Origin: Shewanella baltica
Lineage (GTDB): Bacteria > Pseudomonadota > Gammaproteobacteria > Enterobacterales > Shewanellaceae
Reading direction: 5' to 3'
Length of the DNA stretch: 64,000 nt
NCBI RefSeq assembly: GCF_900456975.1
Contig: NZ_UGYM01000002.1
Location: 124,001 to 188,000 of the forward strand
The position numbers and the translations under genes were made by a program. Of this stretch, positions 57,597-61,258 are shown piece by piece; within the stretch, counting starts at the first letter, position 1; every line of letters starts with the position of its first letter. The notes below the pieces were generated by a model, which was given only the letters and a program-made list of their open reading frames with translations, searched no databases and was not told the origin of the DNA.

Positions 57597-58820
57597 TTGG
57601 ACATTGCTCAAAATCAGGCAGCTCAAAATAAGGCTAAGGGAGCCAGTACTCTGTGGGTGTTGCTCGCCTTAGCGCTCGGGACGTTTGCCTTAGGTACCAC
57701 AGAGTTTGCCTCCATGACTTTAGTACCTTACATCGCTAGCGATTTAGGGGTGGAAGTTGCCCATGTGAGTTATGCCATTAGTGCCTATGCGTTGGGAGTC
57801 GTGATCGGCTCACCGATAATTATGGTGCTGGCGGTTAGGGTCAGGCGGCGCACACTATTGATTGCTCTAGCTGCCTTAATGGCGGTGGCCAATGGCTTAA
57901 GTGCGTTAGCGCCATCATTGAATTGGCTAATCTTTTTCCGTTTTCTCAGCGGCTTGCCCCACGGTGCCTATTTTGGTGTGGCTATGTTGCTCGCGGCCTC
58001 TTTAGTGCCGCCAGAAATGAAGGCTCGCGCCGTATCGCGGGTGATTATTGGCCTTACACTGGCGACGATTATCGGTGTGCCGTTTGCGACTTGGATGGGG
58101 CAAACCGTGGGCTGGCGCTCGGGCATTGGCATAGTGGCGATTTTGGCGACTATTACCGCTGTGATGGTGTATTTTTTAGCGCCTGATCAGGCCGTGGCCG
58201 CTGATGCGAGTCCCAGAAAAGAGCTACAAACCCTGAAGAATCGTGAAGTCTGGTTGACGCTTGGCATCGCTGCGATTGGCTTTGGCGGTATCTTTTGCGT
58301 GTATACCTATCTGGCTGAAACCTTAATCCAAGTGACGCAAGTCGAGCCGTTTAAGATCCCGATCATGATGGCGGTATTTGGTATTGGCGCAACACTGGGC
58401 ACGCTAGTGTGTGGCTGGGCGGCGGATAAGTCGGCCTTAGCGGCGGCGTTTTGGTCGTTAGTGTTAAGCACTGTGGTATTAGCGATTTACCCGAGTTTGA
58501 CCGGACATTATTGGGCGCTGATGCCCGTAGTATTCTTTGTCGGTTGTGGCTTGGGACTTGCCACCATAGTGCAAGCAAGATTGATGGATGTGGCGCCCGA
58601 TGGGCAGGCCATGACAGGTGCGTTAGTGCAATGCGCCTTTAATCTTGCCAATGCAATTGGCCCTTGGGTGGGTAGTTTAGTGATCCTTTCTGGACAAGGG
58701 ATTGCCGCGACAGGTTATGCGGCGTCTTTGTTGTCATTAGGAGGACTTGTGATGTGGTGGTTGACCCACAGGGAGAGTCGCCGCGCGGTAAGCTTAAACA
58801 CAGCTAACTGCGCTGACTAG
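57597..58820 (+). CDS. MFS exporter, AraJ/DHA1-like
   Basis: 407 residues with a TTG start (GCGGAGAAGACG ahead). Twelve helices; TTEFASMTLVPYIASDLGVEVAHVSYAISAYALGVVIGSPI is typical of the AraJ/YdhP drug:H+ antiporter group. The TM2-3 loop is VRVRRRTLLIAL, TM4 has FFRFLSGLPHGAYFGVAMLLAASL and TM5 the RVIIGLTLATIIGVPFATWMGQ motif. It probably exports sugars or drugs. It ends in a terminator facing the SDR gene. Confidence 0.88.
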   Translation: MDIAQNQAAQNKAKGASTLWVLLALALGTFALGTTEFASMTLVPYIASDLGVEVAHVSYAISAYALGVVIGSPIIMVLAVRVRRRTLLIALAALMAVANGLSALAPSLNWLIFFRFLSGLPHGAYFGVAMLLAASLVPPEMKARAVSRVIIGLTLATIIGVPFATWMGQTVGWRSGIGIVAILATITAVMVYFLAPDQAVAADASPRKELQTLKNREVWLTLGIAAIGFGGIFCVYTYLAETLIQVTQVEPFKIPIMMAVFGIGATLGTLVCGWAADKSALAAAFWSLVLSTVVLAIYPSLTGHYWALMPVVFFVGCGLGLATIVQARLMDVAPDGQAMTGALVQCAFNLANAIGPWVGSLVILSGQGIAATGYAASLLSLGGLVMWWLTHRESRRAVSLNTANCAD

Positions 58821-58908: not shown

Positions 58909-59586
58909 CTAGGCTCTTTGTATGGTGATATCGGCGATATAACCGTGCTGGGTGGCGATTAATGCTTGCTTGAGCATGCCAGCCGCTTCATCGGCGGACA
59001 TAAAGCTGGTGGTATCTAATGCTTTACCGCTACTTGGCCAAAAGCCTGTGTCCATGCCGCCGGGATACACGGCAATCAACTTCATTGGGCTTTGTTTAAG
59101 CTCTAATCGCACCGACTCGATAAATCCTCGTACCGCCCATTTTGCCGCGCAGTAAGTGGACTCTCCCGCTTTGGCGGCCAGTGCTGCGGTGGACATGACT
59201 ACAACCACAGTGACCGCTTGATCTTTATAGCGTTTCACTAGCTCGCGCACTAACAAAATCGTCGAGGTGACATTGTTATTGAGCAGGCTGTGGATATCGC
59301 TCGCCCCTTGGGTTTCAATCGCACCAAAGTAGCCGCTGCCCGCACAGTGGATCACGGTTTTAGGGGCTTGCGTTAGGCCATCGAACAGGGCTTCGAGACT
59401 CGATTCACTGGCGAGATCGGCGGTGATCGCGGCGATAGGCTTGTTGGAGAAGGGCGTTAATGCATTGGCGACGGTTTGTAGACGCTCGGCATTGCGGCCC
59501 GTAAGTGTTAGCGGTTCATTTTCTTTGGCGTAGAGCGATGCTAGCGCCGCGCCTAAACCACTGCTGGCGCCGGTAATTAATATCAT
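58909..59586 (-). CDS. Short-chain dehydrogenase/reductase
   Basis: 225 residues from ATG 59586 (MILITGASSGLGAALASLYA). The cofactor motif TGASSGLG (GxxxGxG) is followed by LTGRNAERL, the NADP-type Arg. The active-site pair is STYCAAKWA (YxxxK), with VVVVMSTAAL supplying the Ser. Substrate unknown. It follows the AccB-like gene by 82 bp on the same strand, occupying the place where accC normally stands. Confidence 0.88.
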   Translation of the reverse strand: MILITGASSGLGAALASLYAKENEPLTLTGRNAERLQTVANALTPFSNKPIAAITADLASESSLEALFDGLTQAPKTVIHCAGSGYFGAIETQGASDIHSLLNNNVTSTILLVRELVKRYKDQAVTVVVVMSTAALAAKAGESTYCAAKWAVRGFIESVRLELKQSPMKLIAVYPGGMDTGFWPSSGKALDTTSFMSADEAAGMLKQALIATQHGYIADITIQRA

Positions 59587-59667
59587 AGTGACCTCGGTTA
59601 ATGCTGCCTTTGCTTGAAAACCGCAGCTTAAACTCAAGTGCGCTTCAATTCATGATAAGGCGAGCGG

Positions 59668-60117
59668 TTAGATTAAGGTAAATAGCGGTTGATCGAATGC
59701 CACTTCATCGCCGTCTTTGGCCCAAATAGCGCTGATCACGCCATCGCGCTCGGCTTGGATGGGATTCATCATTCTCATCGCTTCGATAATGCAGACAACT
59801 TCACCTTGGCTCACTCGTTGACCGACTTTAACCAGTGGCACATCATCGAGTTCTGCCGCCGCGTAAAAAGTACCGACCATAGGCGAGACTTGTACAAAAC
59901 CTTCCATACTTGGCGAAATGCCTGTTTGCTTTGCCTGTGCATTCAAAGGTGCCACGCGTGCTGTGGCTGGCGTTTGCGATGACTGCACATTGGCTGGCAT
60001 AGGGCTGTAGCGAGTGATGCGAATTGATTCTTCACCTTCGGTGATCGCCAGTTCTGCTATGTCAGATTCTTGTACTAACTCAATGAGTTTTTTAATTTTA
60101 CGAAGATCCATTGCCAT
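59668..60117 (-). CDS. accB: AccB-like protein lacking the biotin-acceptor lysine
   Basis: 149 residues with the AccB plan: an N-terminal helix-rich stretch (MAMDLRKIKKLIELVQESDIAEL), a Pro/Ala/Gln-rich linker (38-70) and a biotinyl/lipoyl domain (74-149, FVQVSPMVGTFYAA... ). The acceptor motif, normally EAMKMMN, reads EAMRMMN: residue 115 is Arg (codon AGA at 59775-59773). It therefore cannot be biotinylated in the usual way. No accC lies downstream; an SDR gene does. aroQ is upstream (35 bp). Either a degenerate paralogue or a regulatory form. Symbol describes homology, not proven activity. Confidence 0.8.
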   Translation of the reverse strand: MAMDLRKIKKLIELVQESDIAELAITEGEESIRITRYSPMPANVQSSQTPATARVAPLNAQAKQTGISPSMEGFVQVSPMVGTFYAAAELDDVPLVKVGQRVSQGEVVCIIEAMRMMNPIQAERDGVISAIWAKDGDEVAFDQPLFTLI

Positions 60118-60152
60118 TTATCTGCCCTTGCAAAGCACGCTATTGAATGGGA

Positions 60153-60593
60153 TTACTGTGGCTGGTTGAGCCGCTTAATGGCCGCCGCCAGCGCAAACTC
60201 ATAACCCTGTGAACCGAAACCGCAAATCACGCCTATCGCCTTATCGGAAAAATAGGAATGGTGACGGAAGGCTTCACGGGCGTGCACATTGGATAAATGC
60301 ACTTCAAAGAACGGAATTGCGACACCAAGCAAGGCATCACGCAGGGCAACGCTAGTATGGGTAAAGGCGGCGGGGTTGATAATAATCATCTGCGCATCGG
60401 TCGCATGAATCGCGTTGATCAACTCAAACTCGGCATTGGACTGAATATGCTCGAGCTCAACTTCCGCCAACTTTGCCTGCTGATTTAACTCCGCCACTAT
60501 GTCGGCCAAGGTTTGATGACCATAAACGCTGGGCTCGCGGCGACCTAAGAGGTTGAGATTGGGGCCATTGACGAGCAAAATTTTGTGACTCAT
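60153..60593 (-). CDS. aroQ: Type II 3-dehydroquinate dehydratase
   Basis: 146 residues, the usual length. [24 protein letters not shown] holds the flexible lid with catalytic Arg and Tyr. [13 protein letters not shown] is the QSNHEGELID equivalent (His to Ala, Gly to Phe). [17 protein letters not shown] and [20 protein letters not shown] carry the substrate-binding Asn, Ser and catalytic His. It dehydrates 3-dehydroquinate in the shikimate pathway. The departures from consensus (QSNAEF, INPAAF) are mild. First gene of an aroQ-accB pair. Confidence 0.92.
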
Positions 60594-60826: not shown

Positions 60827-61258
60827 CTAATAGTCAGTCTTTTGCTGACGCATGGCTTTAGTGGCGCCTTTTTGTTTCTTGGACTCTAATCGCCGCGTTT
60901 GGCTGCCTTTAGTCGCGCGGGTAGGGATGCGTTTTTTTTGCACTTCACCGACACTGGCGACTAAGGCGATAAATTGCTCCAACGCCGTTTGGCGGTTGGC
61001 ATCTTGGCTGCGGCTCGCTTGGCATTTGATGATGATTTTGCCGCTTTTAGTGATGCGGTGATCGGCCTTGTTGAGCAAACGTTCTTGGTAAAACTCGGGT
61101 AATGATGAGCTTTTAATATCGAAGATCAGCTGCGCAGCGGTAGACACTTTATTTAAGTGCTGGCCGCCAGCGCCACTCGAACGGATAAATTGCCACTCGA
61201 TTTCATTTTCCTGAAGTTCCACACGGTTTGAGATTTTTATCATGGCAAACTTAGGCAT
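60827..61258 (-). CDS. arfB: Ribosome rescue peptidyl-tRNA hydrolase ArfB
   Basis: 143 residues. The release-factor-type catalytic motif RSSGAGGQHLNKVST (GGQ 31-33) is followed by a class I RF-like fold. A basic C-terminal tail (RATKGSQTRRLESKKQKGATKAMRQQK) is the segment that enters the empty mRNA channel of stalled ribosomes. It releases peptides from non-stop ribosomes. Length matches E. coli YaeJ (140 aa). Single gene. Confidence 0.93.
   Translation of the reverse strand: MPKFAMIKISNRVELQENEIEWQFIRSSGAGGQHLNKVSTAAQLIFDIKSSSLPEFYQERLLNKADHRITKSGKIIIKCQASRSQDANRQTALEQFIALVASVGEVQKKRIPTRATKGSQTRRLESKKQKGATKAMRQQKTDY

Follow-up and report, generated by a model that had tools for sequence, protein, structure and literature searches.

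Carrier proteins of acetyl-CoA carboxylase and their non-catalytic relatives

Bacterial biotin carboxyl carrier proteins (AccB or BCCP; TIGR00531; E. coli AccB, structures 4hr7 and 1bdo) combine an N-terminal module with a biotinyl domain, whose E-x-M-K-M motif carries the biotin-accepting lysine; their partners are the biotin carboxylase AccC and the AccA/AccD carboxyltransferase. A regulatory role has been proposed for the N-terminus of the E. coli protein: the accessible text of PMC3896788 reports that this domain autoregulates accBC, but also that accBC transcription was unaltered in an accB deletion mutant, and it describes the biotin operon as controlled by the balance of AccB, AccC and BirA. 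Plant BADC proteins resemble BCCP, lack the AMKL biotinylation motif and sit beside a working BCCP; some accounts treat them as inhibitors, others as a glue for assembly (PMC11926652, available portions). In the biotin carboxylase BC1 of Chloroflexus aurantiacus, it is the N-terminal hairpin of a fused BCCP, and not the biotinyl core, of which four copies form an eight-stranded barrel, holding two dimers of the biotin carboxylase together and supporting activity (PMC11077971, available portions). No earlier description of a lysine-less bacterial AccB appeared among the matches listed from one literature collection.

A lysine-less AccB in Shewanella baltica

The window, i.e. the whole stretch of 64,000 nucleotides that was analysed, contains on its minus strand an AccB homolog of 149 residues (59668..60117), identified by translation of the open reading frame, which contains CIIEAMRMMNPIQAERDG, and by family profiles. 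The protein scores 132.8 bits against the TIGR00531 profile (curated cut-off 115.2) and also matches Pfam Biotin_lipoyl; a Shine-Dalgarno-like AAGGG, recognized by eye, lies seven bases before the ATG (60125..60129, minus strand). Domain order, N-terminal module and biotinyl fold are those of bacterial AccB. The N-terminal module (residues 4-36; 60010..60108, minus) is predicted by AlphaFold2 to form a helix (5-17) and a hairpin (22-27/30-35) with a block pLDDT of 66-76, the linker is disordered in the model (mean pLDDT 75.7), and the biotinyl domain (residues 76-149; 59671..59892, minus), assigned by family match and model, is predicted to be folded, with a block pLDDT of 87-95 for the barrel and a TM score of 0.96 (target-length normalised) at 0.8 A to E. 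coli 1bdo.

What the domain lacks is the acceptor. As the original prediction had stated, residue 115 is an arginine, encoded by AGA at 59773..59775 (minus strand, read 59775-59773), so that EAMKMM has become EAMRMM; in the model it occupies the turn of the hairpin 107-113/116-121. The proline of the 'thumb' is missing as well; we place this region (a term from the available text of PMC11926652) at residues 86-93 (59839..59862, minus), a mapping obtained by inference.

The gene lies downstream of aroQ (type II dehydroquinase; 60153..60593, minus; family profile and locus survey), its upstream neighbour across the genus and in the sister genus, and of arfB (60827..61258, minus; family profile and locus survey), another conserved upstream neighbour; the order aroQ-accB is thus shared with the sister genus. 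Directly after accB, where relatives have accC, stands a gene for an SDR oxidoreductase (58909..59586, minus; family match and locus survey), for which the ATG at 59586 is a likelier start than the TTG at 59637. The absence of accC from this position was part of the original prediction and holds for the locus. Further along, at 57597-58820 on the plus strand, we observed a gene for an MFS transporter, whose best NCBIfam matches, Cmx/CmrA and AraJ, are both under the cut-off.

The remaining acetyl-CoA carboxylase genes of the genome

The S. baltica genome (5.30 Mb, 100% complete) contains no second stand-alone accB: apart from the window gene, a search at E<=10 gave just larger proteins, and no copy with an intact lysine beside accC was found elsewhere. 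Because the window gene is the only stand-alone accB found, the proposal that it is a paralog of an intact accB does not hold. Searches also found no accC, no accA over its cut-off and no accD at E<=1e-20 in this genome. The suggested role as a decoy for AccC is ruled out, since no AccC was found.

The biotin-carboxylase-type domain PF02786 is matched in this genome by a 691-aa protein, a 1079-aa protein and the fused protein described below, and weakly by two open reading frames of 417 and 434 aa. From size and family, we judge the 691-aa protein to be of the methylcrotonyl type and the 1079-aa protein to be carbamoyl-phosphate-synthase-like. The acetyl-CoA carboxylase of the genome is a fused enzyme of 1518 aa, AccS (counted from its TTG), which possesses an EAMKM motif of its own and whose residues 1-1507 match the solved 'AccADCB' structure 9kkm. 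Its gene is divergent from a LysR-like gene (by eye), and accS and accR of S. oneidensis are likewise divergent (PMC11602165, available portions). Beside the LysR-like gene and the gene of the fused enzyme, outside the window, lies an open reading frame (L121:11596-12498, minus) that by eye resembles a class D beta-lactamase, with STFK and KTG motifs.

Distribution of the altered motif in the genus Shewanella

Among 129 Shewanella genomes, accA was found over the cut-off in none, the weaker matches in 128 being the fused protein or its pieces, and accD at E<=1e-20 in none. The fused enzyme is present in 128 of the 129; the exception is a draft genome (G084). The aroQ gene was located in 128 genomes and its surroundings were read in all of them, some clipped by contig ends. 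A motif search showed an AccB-like frame after aroQ in 77 genomes, and tblastn added one more (G032). One genome (G103) has accB away from aroQ, adjoining accC, and its motif is outside the counts given here. No stand-alone accB is seen in the remaining 50 of the 129, all of which have AccS; one of these (G111) is just 52% complete. Five genomes without accB at aroQ (G011, G024, G029, G052 and G127) have an AccC-like frame of 476-491 aa elsewhere, under the AccC cut-off.

The motif at the aroQ locus reads EAMKM in 36 genomes plus G032, EAMRM in 15, EAMTM in 17, DAMTM in two, EAMGM in three, QAMKA in three and QTMKS in one, i.e. 41 genomes have a changed motif: 15 with Arg, 19 with Thr, three with Gly and four with Lys in an eroded motif. 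Because Arg or Gly stands at the acceptor position in 18 Shewanella genomes, the window genome counted, a sequencing error at the Arg codon is rejected; the records are independent and come from many species. The possibility that the Arg is confined to a single strain falls away with its presence in 15 genomes. In a protein search, 74 of 121 sequences (the query and the 120 matches listed) had no Lys at this position; in a scan of contigs, the motif was readable at 52 of 80 loci, with Lys in 51 and Arg in one (Shewanella morhuae).

The change of motif goes hand in hand with the loss of the partner gene. At the aroQ locus, accC adjoins accB in 37 of 37 EAMKM genomes and in 0 of 41 changed-motif genomes, so its absence from the window locus is more than chance. 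A search with the accC family gave one match only in each of the 41 (by eye), which in the window genome is the 691-aa protein. Two further features separate the classes: Pro88 of the thumb (alignment column 87, columns being window-protein residue minus 1) and the Gln four residues past the Lys are invariant in 36 of 36 EAMKM proteins and absent in all 41 others. The motif Glu is altered in six of the 41.

The 37 EAMKM genomes (loci L154, L158, L164 and others) present an observation of their own: they keep an AccB-AccC pair, whereas neither accA nor accD was found in any of the 129 genomes, leaving a biotin carboxylase without the carboxyltransferase it normally works with. Decay of these AccC proteins was rejected, as all 13 single catalytic positions examined are unchanged in the 37 and only the Gly-rich loop varies (residue numbers are in what we take to be E. 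coli numbering). In one genome (G106), a TAG falls inside the accC-family match, yet an open frame of more than 400 aa is present there. The pair would either feed the carboxyltransferase of the fused enzyme or serve something else.

The ortholog in Shewanella oneidensis MR-1

A 222-base stretch of megaplasmid NC_004349 matches one of the surveyed genomes (G064) at 100% and with the same coordinates, which identifies this genome as S. oneidensis MR-1. Its AccB of 152 aa has the Arg form (EAMRMQN). This protein corresponds to SO_0511, for which Table 2 of PMC4793157 gives the same length and which is listed there as an 'additional' AccB homolog beside AccS; the accessible text of that paper makes no mention of the missing lysine. 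A biotin blot of S. oneidensis, as described in the available part of PMC11602165, shows two bands, AccS near 170 kDa and LiuD near 80 kDa; this agrees with a biotin-free AccB, for a blot that is not stated there to resolve a band of 17 kDa. A search for acc and biotin terms in the accessible text of a transposon paper (PMC4168976) gave none.

Direction and number of the losses

Relatives of the genus bear on the direction of these changes. All three genomes of a sister genus of the same family possess accA over the cut-off and the gene order arfB-aroQ-accB(EAMKMM)-accC; the fused enzyme was not found in them at E<=1e-250. In the order as a whole, the fused enzyme occurs in 58 of 394 genomes, 30 from Shewanella and 28 from two other genera. 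None of these 28 yielded a stand-alone accB at E<=1e-5 (in 24 the matches are confined to frames of about 600 aa and in four there are none; a few genomes are incomplete), and accA over the cut-off was absent from all 25 that were searched for it. Within Shewanella, the order aroQ-accB-accC-SDR is kept in G032 and G078, and aroQ-accB-SDR is found in all Arg, Gly and Thr genomes. Hence, the Arg/Gly and Thr lineages lost an accC that had stood between two genes which both remain.

The phylogeny of the fused gene was inferred from codon positions 1 and 2 in 41 genomes picked to span the motif classes. In this tree, the sister of the Arg/Gly group is an EAMKM genome, G078 (SH-aLRT 98), and the Thr genomes (99) and Q genomes (100) each form one clade; at least three changes between EAMKM and other motifs are required. 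A topology that unites Arg/Gly and Thr is rejected (p 6.5e-6), also when Q is added (p 7.2e-6); the motif groups received their names after inspection of a first tree. The tree of aroQ and arfB (128 genomes) likewise rejects a single origin that includes Q (p 0.0195) but does not reject one of Arg/Gly and Thr (p 0.19). On both trees, the Gly genomes fall within or beside Arg. A single origin of all motif changes is thus rejected on the fused gene, and for Arg/Gly and Thr aroQ and arfB alone leave p at 0.19. The tree of the fused gene supports three separate lineages with a changed motif and no accC at the locus; Arg/Gly and Thr have also lost the lysine itself, which the third lineage keeps.

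The third lineage deserves a remark. Its four genomes (G005, G016, G017 and G042; loci L236, L223, L244 and L243) form one clade in which the Lys is kept in an eroded QAMKAL or QTMKSL and accC is gone; an SDR gene was not found at their aroQ locus. Perhaps these four species represent an intermediate stage.

Selection on the lysine-less genes

According to the original prediction, the gene might be decaying. This is not supported, because 41 of 41 changed-motif frames are open and full-length (having been ascertained as open frames) and dN/dS is low. The ratios were pooled from pairwise comparisons within motif classes; the pairs are not independent, and the values are therefore descriptions, not tests. 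For residues 4-36, dN/dS is 0.015 in the EAMKM class, 0.020 in Arg, 0.036 in Arg and Gly combined, and 0.000 in both Thr and Q; for the biotinyl domain, the corresponding values are 0.075, 0.120, 0.116, 0.053 and 0.075, and all classes have a looser linker (0.13-0.46). Taken by themselves, the three Gly genomes yield 0.094 for the N-terminal module, 0.137 for the biotinyl domain and 0.261 for the whole gene. Over the whole gene, accB reaches 0.19 in Arg and Gly combined, 0.07 in Thr, 0.085 in Q and 0.16 in EAMKM, while arfB and aroQ range from 0.03 to 0.07 for the same pairs; selection thus acts on accB but constrains it less than its neighbours. The status of a pseudogene is rejected for the changed-motif genes, and the window gene shows neither relaxed selection nor a broken frame. 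At the 50 aroQ loci that lack accB, tblastn (E<=1e-4) detected no broken remnants of the gene.

The distribution of invariant sites has shifted towards the N-terminus. Compared at the same third-position divergence (0.60 and 0.60), the changed-motif class has more invariant sites than the EAMKM class in the N-terminal module (20 against 11 of 33) and fewer in the biotinyl domain (10 against 25 of 74); of the 25 biotinyl-domain sites invariant in EAMKM proteins, 17 have ceased to be so. Fisher's exact test, with sites treated as independent, gives p 0.006, and subsets of 20 rows concur (N-terminal 14.6 to 21.4, biotinyl domain 27.9 to 12.7). Judged from these alignments, the features tied to biotin went and the N-terminal helix-hairpin stayed, nearly frozen.

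Interpretation of the lysine-less AccB

The lysine-less AccB is real, genus-wide and convergent. The best explanation, which we consider probable with some reservation, is that the N-terminal module of AccB has a biotin-independent function and that the gene is the last remnant of a heteromeric acetyl-CoA carboxylase that has been replaced. The results above show, or lead directly to, the first part of this model: Shewanella has the fused AccS and neither accA nor accD, and accC is gone from three lineages, in which the biotin motif of accB changed and the gene stayed under protein-level selection. The second, biotin-independent role would be carried by the N-terminal helix and beta-hairpin, which probably self-assemble and bind a protein partner, either a biotin-carboxylase domain or a regulatory target, and the apo biotinyl domain would serve as an inert folded cap. 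In its mode of action the protein would resemble a non-catalytic BCCP, such as plant BADC, or the regulatory N-terminal part of E. coli AccB. Of the original prediction there remain the biotinyl fold, the absence of lysine and accC, and the structural or regulatory role, which the selection data favour; the paralog, the decoy for AccC and decay do not remain.

Several observations weigh against this explanation: constraint on the biotinyl domain is somewhat weaker in the Arg class (0.12 versus 0.075), the whole-gene ratio of the Gly genomes is 0.26, the aroQ and arfB data leave p at 0.19, and Lys is still present in the Q lineage. Moreover, the gene is dispensable, as it is absent from two of 20 members of the Arg/Gly clade and, as a stand-alone gene, from 50 of 129 genomes.

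One form of this explanation is possible but rather doubtful: the protein may bind the biotin-carboxylase domain of AccS or of the methylcrotonyl-CoA carboxylase LiuD, assembling or restraining it in the manner of BADC. Its logic is that of the plant proteins (PMC11926652, available portions), which the window protein resembles by description as a BCCP-like protein without the biotinylation motif. The differences are that it is bacterial and occupies accB's own place, that the fused enzyme and larger carboxylases alone were found instead of a working stand-alone BCCP and biotin carboxylase, and that the enzyme it could serve is the fused one. The hairpin is the element that contacts the carboxylase in Chloroflexus (PMC11077971, available portions); there, by description, it is fused to the biotin carboxylase and followed by a biotinylated core. 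Two positions of that interface were mapped by inference from the ANRGE anchor. In the 39 AccC proteins read, the first is always His, Tyr or Phe and the second is Arg or Lys in 38; LiuD of the window genome agrees with them (Tyr32 and Lys37), but all 41 AccS proteins examined have Ala32 and Met37. The data therefore do not support docking on AccS in the manner of AccC, and they weaken a simple AccS docking model. The 50 genomes without stand-alone accB, every one with AccS, also speak against this form.

It is unlikely, though not far-fetched, that the N-terminal part acts on transcription, of its own operon or of accS. The concentration of selection in this part fits such a role, as does the autoregulation of accBC reported for E. 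coli (PMC3896788, available portions), and AccR, which activates accS, is said to require a further ligand of unknown identity (PMC11602165, available portions), a link to AccR being speculation. Against it stand the unaltered accBC transcription in the E. coli deletion mutant mentioned above, the statement in the available part of PMC11602165 that AccB has no DNA-binding motif, and the fact that the accBC operon to be controlled is gone in the window genome.

We regard as improbable that accB is a relic on its way out after AccS took over, persisting by chance or as a folding safety. The many genomes without the gene, including two within the Arg/Gly clade, and the 17 biotinyl-domain sites that are no longer invariant would be expected of a relic. 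It is at odds with dN/dS values of 0.00-0.04 for the N-terminal module and of 0.05-0.12 for the biotinyl domain (Gly alone 0.09 and 0.14), with the absence of detectable remnants at the 50 loci, and with N-terminal invariant sites that became more, not fewer. Very improbable is a decoy or sensor for BirA, in which apo-AccB would bind BirA without being biotinylated and shift the repressor balance: the biotinyl fold and much of its hairpin are kept and the E. coli biotin operon responds to the AccB/AccC/BirA balance (PMC3896788, available portions), but selection is strongest on the N-terminus and not on the biotinyl domain, the motif Glu is altered in six of 41 proteins, and nothing specific points to BirA.

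Implications for the AccB family

A broader reading of the biotin-independent function is plausible, although we lean slightly against it: every bacterial AccB may have a regulatory or assembly function in its N-terminal helix-hairpin, normally hidden because AccB is needed for catalysis and exposed in Shewanella, where the protein would be a bacterial counterpart of BADC or a stand-alone regulator of fatty-acid synthesis. In E. coli AccB, the regulatory role proposed for the N-terminus is difficult to tell apart from the enzymatic one; a lysine-less AccB without AccC separates the two. If SO_0511 has a phenotype in S. oneidensis, it should be independent of biotin. For the lysine-less proteins, the database name 'acetyl-CoA carboxylase biotin carboxyl carrier protein' is misleading. 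Finally, Shewanella shows the stepwise dismantling of a four-subunit enzyme after its replacement, including 37 genomes that still possess AccB together with an intact-looking AccC.
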